Assembly: GCA_027946365.1 (NCBI GenBank)
Contig: JAPEUQ010000010.1
Span: 682,001-746,000, forward strand
Direction of reading: 5' to 3'
From: Kalmusia sp. IMI 367209
Taxonomy: Eukaryota; Ascomycota; Dothideomycetes; Pleosporales; Didymosphaeriaceae
Length of the DNA: 64,000 nucleotides
In this document: piece by piece, positions 34,518-47,163 of the stretch
Layout of the letters: each line of letters starts with the position of its first letter
How positions within the stretch are numbered: position 1 is the first letter of the stretch
Notes under the pieces: generated by a model
Database searches by the model: none
Told to the model about the DNA's origin: nothing
The model's input: only the letters and a program-made list of their open reading frames with translations
Made by a program: the position numbers and the translations under genes

Positions 34518-36546
34518 ATGTGGGCGAAGACAAAGACCGGCAGCAAGGCCGGCTTTGACAAACTATACGGCTGGGTCGACAAATTGGGGCCGCCTGTGAA
34601 TCGTCTTTCCAACCGTTTAGGAAGCGAGGCTTTTTGGCCTACAACCTTGTAAGACAGATCCCCGTTCTTACCATGTGAGACAATCATCTAACATCGATAC
34701 AAGAGACAAAGAGAGCGACAAGGCTGCGCGCATTCTGAAAAGCTTCTGCAGTGAGCAAATCTGTTCCGCGAAAAGCCGCGCGATTGATGTTGACGTATGA
34801 CAGAGGATGGCTTTTACCAAGAAGAGGAGCGTCCCACGGCAGATGGCCCGAAAGCGAAACAGAAGGTGCTCAAGAAAATCCCCACAGAGGTATGTCCACA
34901 CTTCTCCGTACCATGGCGCATGCGATTGCGCATCAAAAGCTCGGCCGCCCAAACGTCAGCTGGAGCACGCAGATCCCGCCAGCTTTTGCAAAGCCACTTT
35001 TCGCAACGAGCGAGTCACTGACGATTTTGTTCAGGTAATTAAAAACGCAAAAGGTCTCGCCATCTTCACCACTATGCGAACCGGCCTTTGGTTCTCCGGA
35101 GCTGGCGGCAGTGGCATCCTGGTTGGCCGTACAGAGGATGGGACCTGGTCACCTCCTTCAGGCATCATGTTACATACCGCCGGCTTAGGGTTCTTGGCCG
35201 GCATAGACATTTACGACTGCGTCGTTGTTATCAACACCCAGCAAGCGCTTGACGCCTTCTCCAAGATACGATGCACGCTCGGTGGAGAAATAAGCGCCGT
35301 TGCCGGACCTGTCGGTATGGGCGGCGTCCTCGAGACGGAAGTCCATAAACGCCAGGCTCCGGTCTTCAACTACATGAAGTCGCGCGGACTTTATGCAGGT
35401 GTGCAGGTAGACGGAACCATAATCATCGAACGCACGGACGAGAATGAGCGCTTCTACGGCGAGCGGATAGGCGTTGGAGATATTTTGCAAGGCAAGATCC
35501 GGCATCCGCCTTATGAGATAAAGCGGTTGCTGGAGACCATCAAAGCTGCACAGGGTGACTCCGACTTCGACGAATCTTTGATTCCGAAAGAACCGCCTCC
35601 AGCCGATTTCGAGATAGACGCACCCACAGATAAATCGTTTGGAATCCCCGATAAAGAGGATCCGGATCCTTACGGAGTATTAGCACTGCAGAATGCAGGC
35701 TTTGAGATCAAGGAAGCGGGCACACAGAAACGGCCCACCAGTGAGCAATTCGAGTTCAACCCTTCTCCGACCAGTCCTATCTACTCGACATTCAGACGAA
35801 GCTTCGATCGCTCCAGTATAGACGGCAGAAGCATCAGCAGAAGGTCTTCGTGGAGGACAAGCACCATGAGCAGCATACTAGAACCACGAACATCGACAAT
35901 GACGGATATGAGCACACAAACAGACTTTGATGCGCCCACACCAATACAGGTGCCGCCCCCGTTACCACCAAGAAACATCCATACACCTAGTCCTACTCTA
36001 GAAAACATACCGGAAACCAAAGTTATTGAAGTCACGCCTCCTCAAAAGATCGATGAAAAAGAAACCACTCACACTGATTCTCCATTTGAAAGCTCAGCAC
36101 GGGATTCGAAGGCATTTGACGATATTGACCTGGACGATGAGGACGACGAAGAGCCAATCATCGAAGAAATCCACCAAGCCGCAGCACCCCAAACCATTAC
36201 CCGCGCCCGTATTGTACAAGTCGCAAAACCCCTCGCACCAAAGCTACCACCCAGGAATCCCGACCGCAACCGATCCTCTTACCAATCGAACGCATCGACT
36301 GATGAGCTGACTCGCGACGCTTCCACGGATCCATCACCTGTAGTTGGCCACAGCCCACCTACTACTCCTTCGCTCAAGGATGGTTCTTCCGCATCGTCCC
36401 TTTCATCCATCGAAGGTCCCGATAACGTTAGCAAGGGACTGCAGCCACACGCTTCTCATGACACCCAGGTGCAGAAAGAGGATAAGGAAGACTTCCACTC
36501 GCTTCCGGAATCTCCTGTCAAGGCCGTTCCCGGAGGTTTCAACTAA
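34518..36546 (+). CDS. Ysc84-like SYLF-domain lipid-binding protein
   Basis: Exons 34518-34648, 34704-34750, 34804-34889 and 35035-36546 close to 591 residues. The N-terminus (LSNRLGSEAFWPTTL, DKESDKAARILKSFC) leads into the SYLF domain: NAKGLAIFTTMRTGLWFSGA, SGILVGRTEDGTWSPPSGIM, LGFLAGIDIYDCVVVINTQ and the C-terminal block KSRGLYAGVQVDGTIIIERT. SYLF domains bind phosphoinositides, and in yeast Ysc84 bind actin at endocytic patches. Here the yeast-type C-terminal SH3 domain is absent. It is replaced by a 300-residue disordered tail with SH3-ligand motifs (PPPLPPRN, KLPPRNP) and an acidic run (DLDDEDDEEP). A role in actin-linked endocytosis is inferred by family. Confidence 0.9.
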
Positions 36547-37197
36547 ATCCCAACATACACGGTGTCTCTCTTCTGGTCGCTTGTCCGTTTAGATGCGAAC
36601 CGCGTCACCAAATCCGCTACTTCGGAAGCCGAAATAGAAATGACCACTTACCTAATTACGCTTTGGGGTCAAGCAGTCAGCTTACATGTCGTTTTCGGAC
36701 CGGCTCGGATCAAACTTATAGGATGAATATGGCAAGGTGTTAAATGGTAGGGTGTTTCTGGATTGGCGCTTCTGGACTTGATATCACGGGTATTGCTTCT
36801 GATCACTTGTTACGGTATTCTTGTGTGAATGATTTATGATCTCATGTCATTGTTCGAATAGAGTAGCGCAGTTTCATCTCGGTTCGTAGCATTTGAGCAA
36901 AAGTAAAGTATTGTTTAGTCCACGAATGAAAGTAATGAGAATGTTCTATTACCAAACATCCGTGCGATGAGGTGGGTTCCAACTATGGTGGTGCGGCCTT
37001 TGGATCAAAGATTACATCGAGCACGGTCCGATGGCTTCGAAGCCTCAGCTTTGGATTGTTTAGTAAGGGAAAGAGAGTGAGTGACTTTGTGATATGTGTT
37101 GGCAAGATGATCAATCGATGGTGGTAGAGATCGCAATGTTCATGGTCCGTGCCATCCCTACCGAAATTTCTCTAAGCCGAAATGCCATCCCACTCAA
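36547..37197. other. Intergenic between the SYLF protein and RRP7
   Basis: 651 bp without a coding candidate. It is relatively AT-rich between 36700 and 36960, consistent with a 3' untranslated region and terminator followed by the RRP7 promoter. Confidence 0.5.
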
Positions 37198-38297
37198 ATG
37201 TCGAACTTCACAGCACTCCAAAGCCAGCCCTACAACACCACTACCATAATGGCTGCCCCCAAAACCAAAAAGCTAAAGAGTGCACCTACAACAGTAGCTG
37301 ACTTTATCGTTCTCCCTCTCGCACTACCCTCACTGCTCGGTCTTCCACCCTCATGCGACGATGCAAAACACTACGTCTACGTGAGGGCGCACGCACCGTC
37401 CATAGCCACAGAGTCCAGCGCGCGGTCCCTCTTCATTGCGAACGTACCCGTCGATGCGTCCGAGACAAATATCCGCGCCTTATTTGCAGAGCAGTTAGGC
37501 GGTGCGAGAGTAGAAGGTGTGGATTTCGATTCGAGCATCCCAGCGGTGGTAGAGCACAAACGATTCAAGAGCAACGAGAAGAGCGGTGGAACGGGGGAGA
37601 GCAGAGGCAAGAAACGTAAGAGGGGAGAAGCAGACATCGTGGCAGAGGGAGTAGTAGAAGACGAAGAAAGTGCGCTGCCACGGATATGGAACGGGGAGCT
37701 GAGGCGGAGCGGAGCCTGTGCCGTAGTCACATTCGTCGACAAGGGGAGCATGCGCGGCGCACTCAAAGAAGTCTCCACAGCCGTCAAGGAAAGGCGAAAT
37801 ATAACGTGGCCCGGCGGCGAAACTCTAGGCGTCGAACGTAAGCCTCTCTGTCCCCTTCACCCCTACACAATTCGGCGCAAAGTTTTCTAATCTGGCGCAA
37901 AATAGGCTACAAATCTCACGCATCCCTCCTCTACCCGGCTCCATCCGGCCTGCAATCTACAACAAACGCCTACCTCGCGCAGTTCGACCGCGCACACGCC
38001 CAGCGCAGCCGCCAGCTCGCTCACCTGCGCAATGTGCCCGACGAAGACGGGTTCATCACCGTCACCCGCGGTGGCGGACGCTCGGCGCCTGCCGCGCGCC
38101 TCGAGATCGCGGAAAAGCAAAAGTCCGAACACGAAGATCGGAAAAAGAAGAAGGGCGAATTGAATGGATTCTACCGGTTCCAGAACAGAGAAAAGAGGAA
38201 AGAAGAGGAAGGGAGATTGAGGAGGCAGTTCGAGAAGGATCGGAGGAGGGTGGTGGAGATGAGAGAGAGGAGAGGGAAGGTCAGGCTGGAGAGTTAG
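37198..38297 (+). CDS. RRP7: Ribosomal RNA-processing protein 7 (Rrp7)
   Basis: Exons 37198-37837 and 37906-38297 (68-nt intron) close to 343 residues. The N-terminal half has an RRM-like fold: SARSLFIANVPVDASETNIRAL, later ACAVVTFVDKGSMRGAL. An insertion of basic residues (KKRKRGEAD) resembles a nuclear localisation signal. The C-terminal signature is diagnostic of Rrp7: DEDGFITVTRGG, KKKKGELNGFYRFQNREKRK and a terminal basic helix. Rrp7 works in the UTP-C/CURI module for early 18S rRNA processing in the nucleolus. An in-frame ATG at 37249 (MAAPKTKKLK) is an equally plausible start and would remove 17 non-conserved residues. Confidence 0.9.
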
Positions 38298-38882: not shown

Positions 38883-41800
38883 TTAGCCCATCGCGCTATT
38901 GGCGCCATCGTTCCCATCACCCTGCTTGAACACCCTCACACCCCGATTCTTCCCATACACATCCTCATCTCCAATTCCATTTGCGCGCGTATCCATGTTC
39001 CTATCACAATCTACGGTTCCTCCCATGACACAGTCACGGAGGTGATGCTGCTCCTTGAGGAGCGCGTCCTTGCTGCATTTAGAGACACCGTTTGCGGTAG
39101 CCATCTCATAGTCCGCTAAGCCAGTGGCCTCTTTGATATCGCAGAGTGTGTCCATATCGGACTCGCAGTCGAGTCTACCCGTATCTCGCCGAGTCCGCGA
39201 GTTGTTCCCAAATGGGGGGTTTTGGCACGTCTCGAATTGTTTCTCCTGGTTCCTCGGAAGGGCTGCCTTTGAGGACGACGGTTGAGGGTTGTGGTGCGCA
39301 TGATCGCATTGAATGCAGACCAGAGCGTGGTCGTGATTCAGCTCCGCACGGAGTTTTGTGGTTGTGGTTAGCAGAGTGAGCTGCATGTGTGCAGCCTCCA
39401 TCGAGTCTCCAATGCCGTCGCCTTCTTTCCTGATATACTGGCAATCCCTCAAGAGATGTGGAGAGACATCATTGAAGTTGAGGAGCGACGGCTTCTCGTC
39501 TTGCTTGAGCCCGCATGAGCATGGATCTACTTTCCCGGTGCCGGTACCTTCCACGTCGAATGTGGTGTGCTTGAGATCGTGAGAAGGTGTATCCAGTGAA
39601 ACAGTAGAGTGTCTCGTGTGCACCTTCTCCCAGAGGAGTGAGGAGAGCGTGTTACGGAACGATTCCAACCCTCGAGGGAAGGTCTCAGAAGCCTTGAGCG
39701 CGTTGCACTCCCAGTACATTTGCTCTTGGCCAATGTGGAGGAAGCGGTGGGAAAGGAGACGTTCTTGTAGCGACCAAGCACGCGTATCCCAGGCGAAGCC
39801 TGGCGTCAAGAATGTGATGAGTGGGAGGCTGGCGGATAGCGTGAGGTGCTCTCCCTTCTTAGGTGTCGTGCATAGGCTCGACCCACTCCTGCTACTACTA
39901 TCGATCTTGTCGAGTACGGTCTGGTTAGCATTAAGCTGATCGAGTACAATGGTGAGAGCCGCATTGCGGTACACATCTGCCGTGGCGCGGCATTCGCGTT
40001 CCTTGTCCTCCTCTGAATCTTGGAGAACGCAAAGCGAGTCTATCCAGATGTACCGGAAGCCGATATCTTGCGCCTTGGCGATCGCTTCGTTAATGGCCTT
40101 GGGTAGTGTCTCTCGAGGGAGATCAGCTTGCATTTCTGCCAGACGACTGGTCGACAGAGTTATTTCTTGATCGGTCCACATGTAGCTGACCGCTGCGTAG
40201 TCCTGGCCCACGGCGCCACCGAGGGCGGCGCCATCCACGATACGCACGGAAACGCCTTCTTTTCCGTCAGGTAGGATGTCCACCAAGCGTGTAGGTAAGG
40301 TCTTCCCAGCAAGGCCAGATGGCTCATGACGACAAGCTTCGTGATCGTGCGAACATTCTTCGAGCCAACGCTTTGCGTGAGCAACAGGGTCTATATGCTG
40401 CTTCTCTTCAGGAGCATCGCCACAGATATGCGCACAGTCGCCAACGCCGTCATCCTGTTGGAATAGCGTCTTGACCGTTTGGAGTTCTTCCTGTGGTCCA
40501 GGATATGCCGCCTGTTCGTTAGGCCAGCTTAGACAGCAAGGAGCTGGTGTGAACACCATAGTCAGCTTCGGCGCGGTGGGACGTTGGGCAGGCTCAGAGC
40601 TGAGCATTTCCTTGACTGTACGCGTCACGTTCGCTTCAGTTTGAGTAGTTGCCCGGTCGAGAGATTGGGAAAGGAGGCCTTGTAGGCCAGAGACATCCTG
40701 CCAGTAGTACTTGCCCTTGCGACCGCCAAATTGCTTGCGGAAGTTGAGCCAGTGCGGATTGTCTTCTCTGAATGCGACTATCGCCATCTCGACGAAAACA
40801 CATCCAAGACTCCAGATGTCGGAAGCGAGTTCACGCGAGATGCCTTCTGAGACCTCAGGCGCGCAGTATTGACGAGTCAATGGCATAGTCTTGCCATCCG
40901 CGGTCAGTTCTCCGATCGAACTGACGCCGAAATCGCTCAAGATAACGTGTGGAAACTCCTGACTTCCTTGCATTACCAGAATGTTCTGAGGCTTAATGTC
41001 CATATGCTTGACAACTGGACGTTGTTCGTGGAGGTAACGAATTGAAGACGCCAGGCAACCTAGCATGTTGACAATCGTCCGAGAAAGTCCTTCTGGCCTG
41101 TTGTGAGTATTCGTATCGAGCCATGATGCAAGCGTCGTCTCTGCGACTGGTGCAAGGAGAATCGACATCCTATCGCCCTTTTGGACGGAATCAACGAAGC
41201 GAATAATATGAGGGTGACGCAGCTTCTGAAGCACATCTACCTCGTTCTTCAGTTCTTCGAGGGCTGAGCGCTCGCGGTTCTTGAGCGTCTTCCGGGCAAA
41301 GTGTAAGCTTGTCTCGCGATGCACAACTTCGTCGACCGTACTAAAGCCTCCCGTGCCGAGGAGCTTGAGACTGCCGAGGAGCGATTCCGTCTCCCGGGTC
41401 AACGATCGAGACCGAGCGTGATCGGTGGATTCCCTCCTTTGTATTGTACACCTTGGAGTGACTCCGTCCGTTACACGTTGATCGTGATCGCCTTCCACTT
41501 GATCTTGCTGATCTGGTGCGGGATCTCTATCATTCGGTGGAACATACGGCGGTATAGTCTGGAGCTCAAGGCGATCGGTCTCATTTAGGGAGAGAGCATT
41601 TCCGGCCAGAGTCTGCGAGTCATGTTCCTTTGTCTTCTCGTGCCTGCCATGCATGGAGCGTTGAATGTCATGTATTGAGCATGTTGCTCTATACTCTGTA
41701 GTTGTGGTTGCGTCGCGAGAATCTTGGTCGCCTGAATCCAGTGCAGATGCTGGTTTAATATGCTGGTTGCCAAGTGGTTGAATATGCTGGCTTCCATTCT

Positions 41801-43567
41801 GTTCAACTTGCTCGACTCCCGGTGAAGAACCTCTAGTGTCACTATCGGCGAATCGTGAAACCTGGAACTGGAAGAAGCCGCTCTGTGGACCGAAGTCGTT
41901 TCCGCCGTTTCCATCGTTTCCATCTCCATTGTGCTTTTGACCAGGATCACGTGGGTTATCGCTTGGAGGGAAGAAATCCTTTCCGTTCCCGAAGCCACCG
42001 CCGCTATCAGGTCGGTCGTCATCATCGTCCATATTGTCAGAATCATTGTTCTCATTCTCATCATCGCTCCAGTCGAGCATGCACTTGCCGTCCTTGAAGT
42101 GCTCTGCTATATGGTCGATACGATCCTGTCGTGACACAAATTGATGAGAGCAGAACCCGCACTTTCTAGCAGCCTGTGGCAGGCTAGTGTCTGAGTGCAC
42201 GACCGACGTCTCTTCATAATCGCCACAGTTGAGGCCTGGGTGGATATTGCGGAAGTGCTGAGAGAAGTGATATTTTCTGAAGCAGGGCTTCACTCGCTCT
42301 ACACCTTCGCTTACGCAAAGGCCTGAATTCGTTAGCAATTGCCTGAGAACCCATCACCTAGGCTAGAATTGGGGGGACACATTATGGATCAATGTGACCC
42401 CAGGGTGCCTGGGCTAAACAAAGTATTACTCACTGCACAACCAGCTTTTAGACGGATACCCTTCCTCCTCATTCCTCTTCCAGTCGCATTTGCGCCCGTA
42501 TCGCTTACCGCACTTCCGTGTGCACTGGTAGATCTTATTCGGGTCCCGCTTGAGCAACTCTGGGTCGTCCGTTGGATTGCACCCCTTCTTTCCCCCTCGC
42601 AGCGGTGAGACTGTCGTCGCAGCCTGGGTATCGTGGTTACATGAAACATCGGAGATCGCCAGCTGCTGTGAAGCGATTCCGGTGGTAGTCTGTGGAAGCT
42701 GGCTGAAGAGTGGATCTTGCGTAAAGCCTGTTTGAGATTTGTACGCAGAGTCCTGCCCATTCATTCCCTGTTTCAATGCCTGGCCGAACCATTGTCGGAT
42801 AGCAGTTGATGATTCACCAGTGAGCTGGCTGAGTGAGTCGATATGCCTGTCACTGGGCTGAAGTCAGCACTGCTGGAGACGTCTCTGGGCTGAGCTACAC
42901 AATGATATATAATACAACGATGGCTGGTTCTATTTGACTCACCTTGGTAGGACATTGTACTTGCTGAACCACGTCGCACAGACATCAGCTGCCTCATCGC
43001 TCAACCCAACGTCAGAACTTGCAGCTGGCGTTGGCTGTGTCTCGAGCGCCCAGTTGCTACTCGATGCTGTGATGGATGCCGTGGTAGAGAAGGGTGAGAA
43101 TGCCTCATGCCGCTTCGCTTGAGGGTAGTCCTGGACCTCAAGCTGTAGCGGCCGCTTGCTCAAAGAGTTGTACTGAGGGGCAGTATATAGTGATTCGAAT
43201 GACTGCGCAGGCGTTGTGGGAAATGTGTTACCCCATGAGGCACTCCCGGCGGTGTTATCCAAACCCTGCCTAGTCAGCTAGCCCACAACGCGAGCATGTC
43301 TAGGAAATCACGTACAAGAGGTTCCATTCCAAACGCTGTGCTGTTCAGATCACCGACAGGCGCAAAGATTGAGTCAAACGAATGATCAAATGAAGTGCCA
43401 GTTGTGTCGATTCCCTCGTCGCCAAAGAAGAACGAGGTCGAAGAAGTGTTACCCTCTCCTGTTGATCCTTTCAAGTCATTATACGCAGCAGGCTGCATCC
43501 CGAATCCGGTAAAATCGATGCCAGCGCCCGCGTTGAAGTCGAAGTTACCGCCCTGCGTAGAGGCCAT
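38883..43567 (-). CDS. Homeodomain-like / C2H2 / Ser-Thr kinase / HET fusion protein
   Basis: Exons 43316-43567, 42943-43265, 42434-42846 and 38883-42322; phases close to 1,475 residues. Domains in order are: a disordered start; a homeodomain-like segment at about 177-218 (CATWFSKYNVLPR then LTGESSTAIRQWFGQAL); a fungal C2H2-type region at about 300-410 (YQCTRKCGKRYGRKCDWKR, WLCSLC, YHFSQHFRNIH, CGFCSHQF...DHIAEH); an acidic, Asn/Gly-rich linker; a protein kinase at about 650-915 with GTGGFSTV, Lys674, HMDIKPQN (Asp771), DFG (Asp793) and CAPE; then a HET domain from about 1047 (YAAVSYMW, RYIWIDSLCVLQD, ATADVYRNAALTIV, DTRAWSLQERLLSHRFL at about 1175), preceded by the His/Cys and LPTRLVDI lead-in usual before HET. 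One exon holds fingers, kinase and HET, so the fusion is not a splice artefact. HET domains trigger cell death in non-self recognition. The combined function is unknown. Confidence 0.85.
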
Positions 43568-44457: not shown

Positions 44458-47163
44458 TCATGTCGCGGTTTTGATGAACCAATCCGAGCTAGCATCCACC
44501 ATGTAGTTTGTAATGTTGAACTCATTGACTGGCGCACCATCAGACATTTGGATAGTGCCGTCCGGAGTGACATAGTTCGCGGCAGTATCCATGGAAACAG
44601 GTAGCCTTGGCATATTGAAGAAATCGAACACATCGAGGTACTCGAGCTCGTTCGGCCCTGGAGTCCGAGCTGGAGTAGGCTGGTGGCTGGGATGCATCTT
44701 CGGTTGTCGCGCGATGAGAAAGTCGAGATCAAATGCGCAGCGGCGCATATCGGCAAGGATTTTGACAGTGGATGGTGTAACACGTTCTCCGTTAACACCC
44801 GTATTCTGTTGTGACTCCTGGTACTCTTGCAGAACGCGAGAGAGCAGACTGGCGTAGCGGGAGCCTACTTCCCAATACTGCCCCATCTCCTGGAGCGTTG
44901 ATACTAGTAGATTGATGGATTCGTCGACACGGTGGGCTATAGTTGATCCATGGACGAGGAGTACGCGAGCTGCGACCCACAAAGAGAAAGCAAATGGCGG
45001 TCCGAGCTTAGTCAAAAGTCCATTCTCTCGAATGCATGCGCATAGTGCCACGATGCTCTCAACGGCACTGAGACACCTCTGGCTTGCACTGAAGGAAGGT
45101 GCAAATATCGGTGAGCGATGGGTGGGATATGCTGCGGAAGAGTGGAGGCGGATGACGGTGCTACAATAAGTCAGTCATGAGATTGAGATGAACGCTGGTG
45201 GTAGTCTTACGTGTGGAAAGCGGCGTGCAGCATTATCAACCCGCTATTTATATCCTTATTCATGCCCGGCCCGGAGAAAATGCGAGCTGAGTTGCCGTAT
45301 TCAGATGGCAAATTATATTTCCACTGCTCGAGAGCATTGTCCAATGTGCGATACTCGCCCTGCCATTTTTCAACATCTGACAGGGAGGTGATGTCCACAG
45401 GTTGCTTTAAGAAGTTATGTATGCGTGAAAGGATCTCCAGTATTTCGACATAGAATGAAAATGCACCCAAGTTGTCCGGTCGATTCATTGTATAGTCAGT
45501 GCGCGTCGATGTGCGAAACCAGCGAGTCTCCACGGGTGCATTGCGGGTGAAAAATTCATCCCGGCACGGTAATTGGCGATCGATTTCCTTTTCATCAAGA
45601 GCAAATTCGAAAGCGGTTGCGACCGTGGCGTAGCGGTCAAGTACGTAAATCATCCAGAAAAGGCGCCTTCGACTCTCTTCCATTATCCAGTCTGTTGGTT
45701 CAGGAAGGACTATGGCTCGCAGGGTGTAAATGGACGCATATTGAGGTGCAACCTTTGGAGATGAGTTTTCTACCGAGAGCCCAAGGTTGACAACCGATCG
45801 CGTGATTAAAGCGAGCAGGTTCCATCCTGGAGGACCATTCGAGCACCCTACGACATCTAGAGACAGAATGACGAGGGCCTGCAATGACTTGACTGTGCTA
45901 TTCTCGATCCCATACAGCAACACCTTCTCCTTTGAGTTCTTGTGGTAGTGTGTTCTTTTCTCTGCGGTCAGACGTTGATCTGTCGAGAACTTGAGGGTAG
46001 TAGCAACGATGGCGTGTAGCAATATCCTGTCTGCTTCTTCCAGACTAGCATCACCGAAAAGTGAGTTCAGAGTCGCCTGGCGGTGTAGTATTGGGCACCA
46101 TGGATATATGTGTTTGAAGAATAGGTCCACCAAACCGTATAACAAGTCGTATGGAGGGAAATCTTTGTCTCCTTGGGCCAGAGCTCCTGCCATTGCGGGT
46201 GGAGCGAAGCGATCGTTGTTGAAGGCGAAGGCATCTCGTTGCATCCCACCAAGGTTAGAAGGCATCTCCTCTGGAGAATGCTGGTAGCCATTGCTGCCCA
46301 CGGATGGCGCCTGCCGCGCGTCAGAAATCCCCCCGGGAAAGCTTGGCTGCAGAGGAGTTGCAGCAGAGAAGCTTGCAGGCTTCTGTATGAAGAGTGCCGT
46401 CTCAGGCCGTGGCACATGCGGCGCCTGGTGGAGAAGAGTTGGGCTCCGGAAGACCGGTCCGGTTCGCGGCGAAGAGACTGACGGCGTGATTTGGTTGCTG
46501 GAGAGCTGGTTGATCTGGTTCTGTTGTTGGTGGAGCAATGCCTCCAGTTTGTCTGCATCAAAGTCAGCCCACAATCCCACGTCCGCTATTTCTATTTTCC
46601 GTCCGATAGCATGTTAGATAGATAAGAGACAAGAACCGCCGAACAAGCCGAAAGTTAACACAGTCGAAGACAATGCGACCGCTGATACAGCTTCGGCTTG
46701 AGCGAAGCGCGGGTGGCGGATTTCGACTCACCAAGACGTGCCTCTAATTCTCGACCGTAACCTGCGCGCAGACCTGGCTTCTTGCGCGGAAGGTAAATCT
46801 TTGGAAATCGTAAGCTACAGTTTCGAAACAGAGGCGCGACACGTACACAGATGGAGCTGTTCTTTGTACACCAGCCGCAGCTCGGCTGGCCACGGTCACA
46901 TTTCACCTGCGACGCCGTCAGCATCAATTGAGAAGTTGCTTTGTCCGACTTACCTTGCGCTGTTTGCAAATCTCGCAGCTGACTGACAGCGGCCGTTTGC
47001 GCTTGATTGCGCCGCTCTGGCTTCGAGTTGCTTCATCTCCACTGGACCCCTCGCCGCTCCAGACGTCCTGCTCGTCGGTGGGCGAATGCTGCGACAGCTT
47101 CGCATGGCCATCCGGGCTGGCATAGGGCTGCGACGCGCTGCCGTTGACTGAAGCCGCGTCCAT
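44458..47163 (-). CDS. Zn2Cys6 transcription factor, probable L-rhamnose regulator (RhaR/TRC1-like)
   Basis: Exons 46954-47163, 46847-46906, 46732-46798, 45211-46552 and 44458-45160 close to 793 residues. The DNA-binding domain is split over two exons and reads SCEICKQRKVKCDRGQPSC then GWCTKNSSIC, with the six-Cys spacing of a binuclear zinc cluster. After a further splice comes PRKKPGLRAGYGRELEARL, then a dimerising coiled coil (DKLEALLHQQQNQINQL). The fungal transcription factor regulatory domain spans about 230-520, with HIYPWCPILHRQATLNSLFG and SRRRLFWMIYVLDRYATVA. It is divergently paired with an L-rhamnonate dehydratase gene 636 bp away. That pairing, and the KKPGLRAGYGRELE motif, suggest the RhaR/TRC1 regulator of rhamnose catabolism; this assignment is inference from context and remembered family features. 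Confidence 0.85.

Follow-up and report, generated by a model that had tools for sequence, protein, structure and literature searches.

A kinase-HET protein on a homeobox/C2H2 front end in Kalmusia and its relatives

HET genes are abundant and variable, mostly without an assigned architecture, and they normally come and go quickly. We have studied a gene of Kalmusia sp. IMI 367209 (Didymosphaeriaceae, Pleosporales) that lies within a stretch of 64,000 nucleotides of contig JAPEUQ010000010.1, which we call the window. It encodes a single protein in which a Ser/Thr kinase and a HET domain follow a front end of a homeodomain-like region and C2H2 fingers. The retention of this kinase-HET protein across much of one fungal order is unusual, because of the rapid turnover of HET genes in general.

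Several described systems contain one or other part of this protein. The stand-alone HET proteins (PF06985) of filamentous ascomycetes share with it a lead-in, three HET blocks and a glutamate. In the window protein, by contrast, the HET domain comes after a kinase and belongs to one conserved copy, and the region next to HET in L010-L013 is missing. HET is likewise joined to other signalling modules in the HET-NACHT-WD40 NOD-like receptors (NLRs) of fungi (HET-E, HET-D, HET-R), but in the window protein HET is on the C-terminal side, with neither NACHT nor repeats. Pfam scans of the window exons and of the public copy of the protein (P0001) revealed no NACHT, NB-ARC or C-terminal repeat family, and the lack of NACHT and repeats rules out membership of the fungal NLRs. 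Kinases and HETs are both named as effector domains of NLRs in PMC4986451 and PMC10197012. Plant NLRs with integrated domains, and the putative integrated decoys of Sordariales NLRs as presented in PMC12258605, resemble the present family in combining a conserved signalling core with a site for foreign domains; however, this family has no nucleotide-binding (NB) domain, and its foreign pieces are partial and rare.

The front end resembles KN-homeobox plus C2H2 factors (P0209 from Trichoderma and P0196 from a metagenome), in which a homeodomain is followed by a similar array of fingers. The window protein aligns with P0196 over residues 182-426 with 32% identity (E = 1e-33). Neither P0209 nor P0196 has a kinase or HET match, and the P0209 homeodomain keeps a WLAN..R sequence that is missing from that of the window family. 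By eye, the C-terminal end of P0196 resembles the start of an ankyrin repeat. As for the kinase, the Kalmusia genome encodes two non-RD kinases (L005 and L009; 35-37% identity) that share the KHMDIKPQNIL loop and a post-kinase CC motif with the window protein; the finger pattern was not found at these two loci, where no HET profile search was made. Other kinase relatives (L006 and L008) appear by eye to lie behind TPR-like repeats in single frames.

The HET, kinase and homeobox/C2H2 parts are each known, and their combination without an NB domain is apparently undescribed. No paper was found for this architecture or for five orthologue locus names, in a search whose sources were in part accessible and left bioRxiv and most of the subscription literature outside it.

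The gene and its family

The gene occupies positions 38883-43567 on the minus strand and has four exons, separated by introns of 50, 90 and 111 bases that are all GT..AG; its product is 1,477 amino acids. Pkinase and HET lie in the same exon, in a single stop-free frame of 1,156 codons, with Pfam E values of 6.4e-42 (PF00069) and 1.6e-22 (PF06985). This agrees with a sequence-only reading of the locus, which had proposed one spliced frame with kinase and HET in a common exon. The frame of 1,475 residues given in that reading was reproduced and then lengthened by two residues. We have moved the acceptor of intron 2 by 6 bases upstream (...CCCAG, yielding LPSDRHID), because the two homeodomain-loop residues missing from the shorter model are present in 39 of the 39 other diverse members listed. 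The placing of all the fingers in the 3.4-kb exon was incorrect, since exon 3 contains finger 1 and the first part of finger 2, which continues into exon 4, where finger 3 also lies. The best database match is N0V90_009226 (P0001) of the same Kalmusia isolate, which is the same gene and differs in splicing alone. This public model uses the intron 2 acceptor of the shorter frame, and parts of fingers 1 and 2 are spliced away.

A protein search, of the kind suggested earlier as a check on whether the architecture recurs, gave 215 homologues at E ≤ 0.001 among 7,987 candidates scored, of which 120 were listed, including P0001 itself; the recurrence exceeds what chance would give. Precomputed Pfam matches place Pkinase and HET together in 119 of these 120, and separate Pfam scans found HET in 130 of 132 kinase-bearing members. 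The two lacking it are P0114, which is marked as partial, and P0173, a metagenome model. In P0173 the sequence passes from the kinase towards the C-terminal motif without an intervening HET, corresponding either to loss of HET or to a gap in the gene model. The source names are hypothetical, uncharacterized or kinase-type among the entries listed. Nearly all the named hosts are, by families that we take to be correctly assigned, Pleosporales; on looking up, Delitschia belongs to that order, and Zopfia is incertae sedis within Dothideomycetes.

More than half of the kinase and of the HET region is covered in 120/120 listed homologues, of the fingers 1-2 region in 109 and of the homeodomain region in 98; among those lacking the front end, several are short models. 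Compared with the window protein, median identity is 0.72 for the homeodomain region, 0.79 for fingers 1-2, 0.62 for finger 3, 0.62 for the kinase and 0.50 for HET, falling to 0.26 in the linker between finger 3 and the kinase and 0.22 in the tail (53 rows). Trees were calculated from 60 and 59 of the 121 aligned rows, mostly rows labelled by family or name; the family labels are those we presume to apply. With kinase and HET combined (60 rows, 17 of them labelled as other), each of the seven labelled family groups fell on one side of a branch. The kinase alone also grouped seven of seven, and HET alone six of seven (59 rows), where the two rows of Massarinaceae were split. The trees follow fungal families, and the fast lineage-specific turnover of het loci is not seen.

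In the Kalmusia genome HET was matched at least 150 times, several of these matches containing internal stops; 150 of 370 candidates were scored, and the matches shown do not include the HET of the window itself. Kinase and HET of the query were both matched at this place only, among 42 matches obtained on scoring 40 of 251 genome candidates. The conclusion that emerges from these sequence comparisons is that the kinase-HET protein is vertically inherited, without NACHT or repeats, on a homeobox/C2H2 front end.

Kinase, HET and front end

The kinase contains Lys676, Glu692, HxD (771-773), DFG (795-797) and APE (819-821). The Lys, Glu, HxD, DFG and APE residues are retained in 121 of 121 aligned sequences, which count the window protein and P0001 as two entries, as predicted for an active kinase. 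The residue preceding the catalytic Asp is M in 112, L in 17, G in two and K in one of 132 proteins; since Arg never occurs there (0/132), this is a non-RD kinase. According to PMC8463890, non-RD kinases are tied to innate immune signalling across kingdoms, and one of them, EFR, signals without its own catalysis. By analogy, this association offers a lead for the kinase-HET protein.

The HET match scores 80.8 bits against a curated cut-off of 22.5. The three blocks and the lead-in are present, as are the kinase Lys, HxD, DFG and APE, all as read earlier. The conserved HET positions listed are kept in 109-121 of the 121 sequences, and the glutamate in 117; Glu1108 probably corresponds to the glutamate named in PMC9815663. 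A sequence search of the PDB with the HET part gave no match up to E = 10. Foldseek with a model of HET returned nothing at E ≤ 0.001, and the absence of TIR chains from the matches shown is uninformative.

The homeodomain and the fingers, taken alone, fall under the Pfam cut-offs. Of 22 fragments, seven matched Homeobox_KN at E ≤ 1, the best (0.01) being below the cut-off; zf-C2H2 was similarly under its own. In the Pfam search proposed earlier, the clear results were those for Pkinase and HET. Support for the homeodomain and fingers comes from a profile of the family, from a structure model and from relatives of intermediate type. The model predicts a homeodomain fold for the region, and the homeodomain profile compared with the PDB gave homeoboxes in 5 of 12 rows, with antibody chains and HJURP ranking directly beneath. 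In a numbering that we take to be the standard one for homeodomains, Asn51 is retained in one and Arg53 in none of 148 motif matches, two of which look stray. Because of these losses it is doubtful that the homeodomain reads DNA, and a canonical DNA-reading homeodomain is ruled out. The ligands of finger 3 are complete, and in finger 1 the His position is occupied by Asn in 141 and by His in one of 155 proteins matched. The homeodomain-like and C2H2 parts described earlier were thus upheld as homologues of homeobox/C2H2 proteins and not in their Pfam scores, their DNA contacts or the finger 1 histidine. The proposed tie to transcription factors is likewise supported by homology with P0196 and P0209, leaving DNA reading through the homeodomain in doubt. 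These observations point to a transcription factor that was converted into the front part of a signalling protein.

A possible switch, and how else the protein might be explained

The explanation that we tentatively prefer is a nuclear switch in which the kinase controls HET. It builds on what is directly observed: one reading frame, the identities of kinase and HET, intact residues, conservation, and trees that follow families. The protein would have arisen by a single fusion, probably in an early ancestor of the Pleosporales, of a homeobox/C2H2 front end, a non-RD Ser/Thr kinase and a core, TIR-like HET. The front end would most likely act as an anchor at a nuclear partner or DNA, and not in DNA reading by the homeodomain. 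A change in the front end or the linker might set the kinase, which might then convert HET into its signalling form by phosphorylation of itself, of HET or of a partner, or by a change of shape. HET in this form would lead to regulated cell death or a defence response. Activation of a HET death effector by the kinase would be compatible with its intact catalytic residues; the nuclear site, the order from kinase to HET, the output as death and the single origin we infer. A conserved HET protein that carries its own kinase, and of which no second copy is seen, is a tractable case that could be approached by one deletion. It also offers built-in tests of whether the kinase switches HET, and of whether the HET glutamate is catalytic.

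A serious competitor, to which we give somewhat less credence, is that the protein controls development or metabolism as a conserved regulator in the nucleus, that HET serves it for oligomerisation or docking, and that cell death plays no part. The occurrence of the gene in many families with no second copy seen in the genome would be expected of such a regulator, as would a front end that is better conserved than HET. But the HET positions, glutamate included, are kept beyond the apparent need of a docking surface, and the DNA contacts of the homeodomain are lost.

We think it improbable that this is a usual polymorphic allorecognition (het) locus. It does have a HET domain, and both linker and tail vary strongly between species. 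However, HET genes are highly variable with lineage-specific expansions, as described in PMC10197012, unlike this widely present gene. An ordinary incompatibility gene is unlikely because no second copy is seen and the trees follow fungal families.

The variable linker raises another alternative. Its length ranges from 163 to 801 residues in 121 proteins; the part that follows a short motif resembling LARDA measures between 54 and 620 residues (97 of 107 linkers). Pfam scans of the 132 kinase-bearing proteins found pieces of other domains at E ≤ 0.01 in the linkers of five: ankyrin in P0009 of Lentithecium fluviatile (E = 7e-14), NACHT P-loop in P0017 of Neocucurbitaria cava (1.4e-13), patatin in P0027 of Pleomassaria siparia (1.7e-4), ketoacyl synthase and P-loop in P0119, and the C-terminal part of ketoacyl synthase in P0059 of Alternaria atra (2.3e-4 and 0.0016 for the two ketoacyl-synthase pieces). 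The tally omits kinase-like matches (PK_Tyr, Kdo, APH, EcKL and Pkinase_fungal), matches to acidic tracts (TFIIF_alpha), and others with E > 0.01. A ketoacyl-synthase piece in P0023 reached 0.00014 solely when scanned alone, and P0137, a model without kinase, has a patatin piece (0.0015). Comparison with near kin shows clean insertions for the P0009 and P0017 pieces and a less sharp one for that of P0059. In the Kalmusia genome the P0017 piece matched 27 places (best 1.5e-7) and the P0027 piece six (best 2.4e-6), and the P0059 piece is 59% identical to part of an open frame of 2,185 residues (9.3e-10). An Hsp70-like piece with extra fingers, seen by eye in P0035, was rejected; it gave no Pfam Hsp70 match, and the Hsp70-like piece was unmatched in the Kalmusia genome. 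Pfam recognised no domain piece in the window's own linker, pieces of which matched only themselves in their own genome.

Such pieces could be baits, varying by lineage and drawn from defence or metabolic proteins (ankyrin, NACHT P-loop, patatin, polyketide synthase), though we regard this as a long shot. The protein would then be a non-NLR immune receptor with an integrated decoy, in which interference with the baits triggers kinase and HET; this too has a slim chance of being correct, and we give equally little weight to the layout it requires, a conserved nuclear anchor, a kinase and a TIR-like HET arranged around a bait linker. The linker accounts for 49% of the disordered sequence compared, and it contains all five of the pieces that could be located (p = 0.029). 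Yet the linker had been chosen prior to this test, and p rises to 0.10 if one unlocated match (Vert_HS_TF, E = 0.0043, A8) is counted outside it. Furthermore, 127 of 132 linkers have no piece, the window's included; pieces out of frame are invisible, and by chance alone the donors would most likely be large gene families. The pieces are known from protein models. They may be filler DNA tolerated within a disordered stretch, visible only if in frame. The hypervariable linker with its captured pieces gives slight and indirect support to the earlier idea of a guard.

Finally, an artefact of annotation or assembly that fused two adjoining genes is scarcely credible: a 459-residue model of the front end only (P0124, Exserohilum turcica) and several short front-end models from metagenomes might suggest it, but several short models (such as P0155 and P0191) come from contigs of the same length as that of a kinase-HET model, as expected of split gene calls, and two genes or a frameshift, the outcome that would have overturned the sequence-only reading, are rejected on the sequence, in which the exon is stop-free and the gene, single here, is conserved in joined form in 119 of 120 listed homologues.

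Feature coordinates and neighbouring genes

Table 1. Features of the kinase-HET gene, in positions of the window
Feature	Positions	Strand	Remarks
Exon 1	43316..43567	-	start codon at 43567; followed by GT..AG intron 43266-43315
Exon 2	42943..43265	-	first half of homeodomain; basic motif KR-x12-KR at 43110-43157
Exon 3	42434..42852	-	acceptor CCCAG; carries the second half of the homeodomain, finger 1 and the beginning of finger 2
Exon 4, 3,440 bases	38883..42322	-	remainder of finger 2, finger 3, linker, kinase, HET, tail, stop
Homeodomain, residues 172-221, intron 2 inside	42765..43004	-	W48/F49 retained; Asn51, Arg53 lost
Finger 1, residues 300-325, Asn replacing His	42453..42530	-	
Finger 2, residues 329-360, across intron 3	42237..42443	-	
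Finger 3, residues 384-407, C-x2-C-x12-H-x3-H	42096..42167	-	
Acidic low-complexity linker, finger 3 to kinase, residues 416-637	41406..42071	-	hypervariable in the family
Kinase domain of non-RD type (HMD), residues 650-918, with its catalytic residues	40563..41369	-	
HET lead-in AKRWLEECSHDHEAC	40326..40379	-	
HET, PF06985 match, residues 1040-1185	39762..40199	-	third block extends as far as about 39738; WEKVH, the conserved end, is at 39618-39638
Short C-terminal motif RDCQYIRKEGDGIGDSMEAA	39390..39449	-	recurs in the consensus of aligned relatives

The next gene upstream, on the same strand (45207-47032, minus), contains Fungal_trans and Zn2Cys6 in two frames and is presumably one transcription factor. 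On the plus strand, positions 37111-38297 carry the N- and C-terminal domains of the rRNA-processing protein RRP7 in two overlapping frames, presumably of one gene, and positions 34801-36546 encode a Ysc84 / Las17-binding actin regulator (Pfam E = 1.5e-45).

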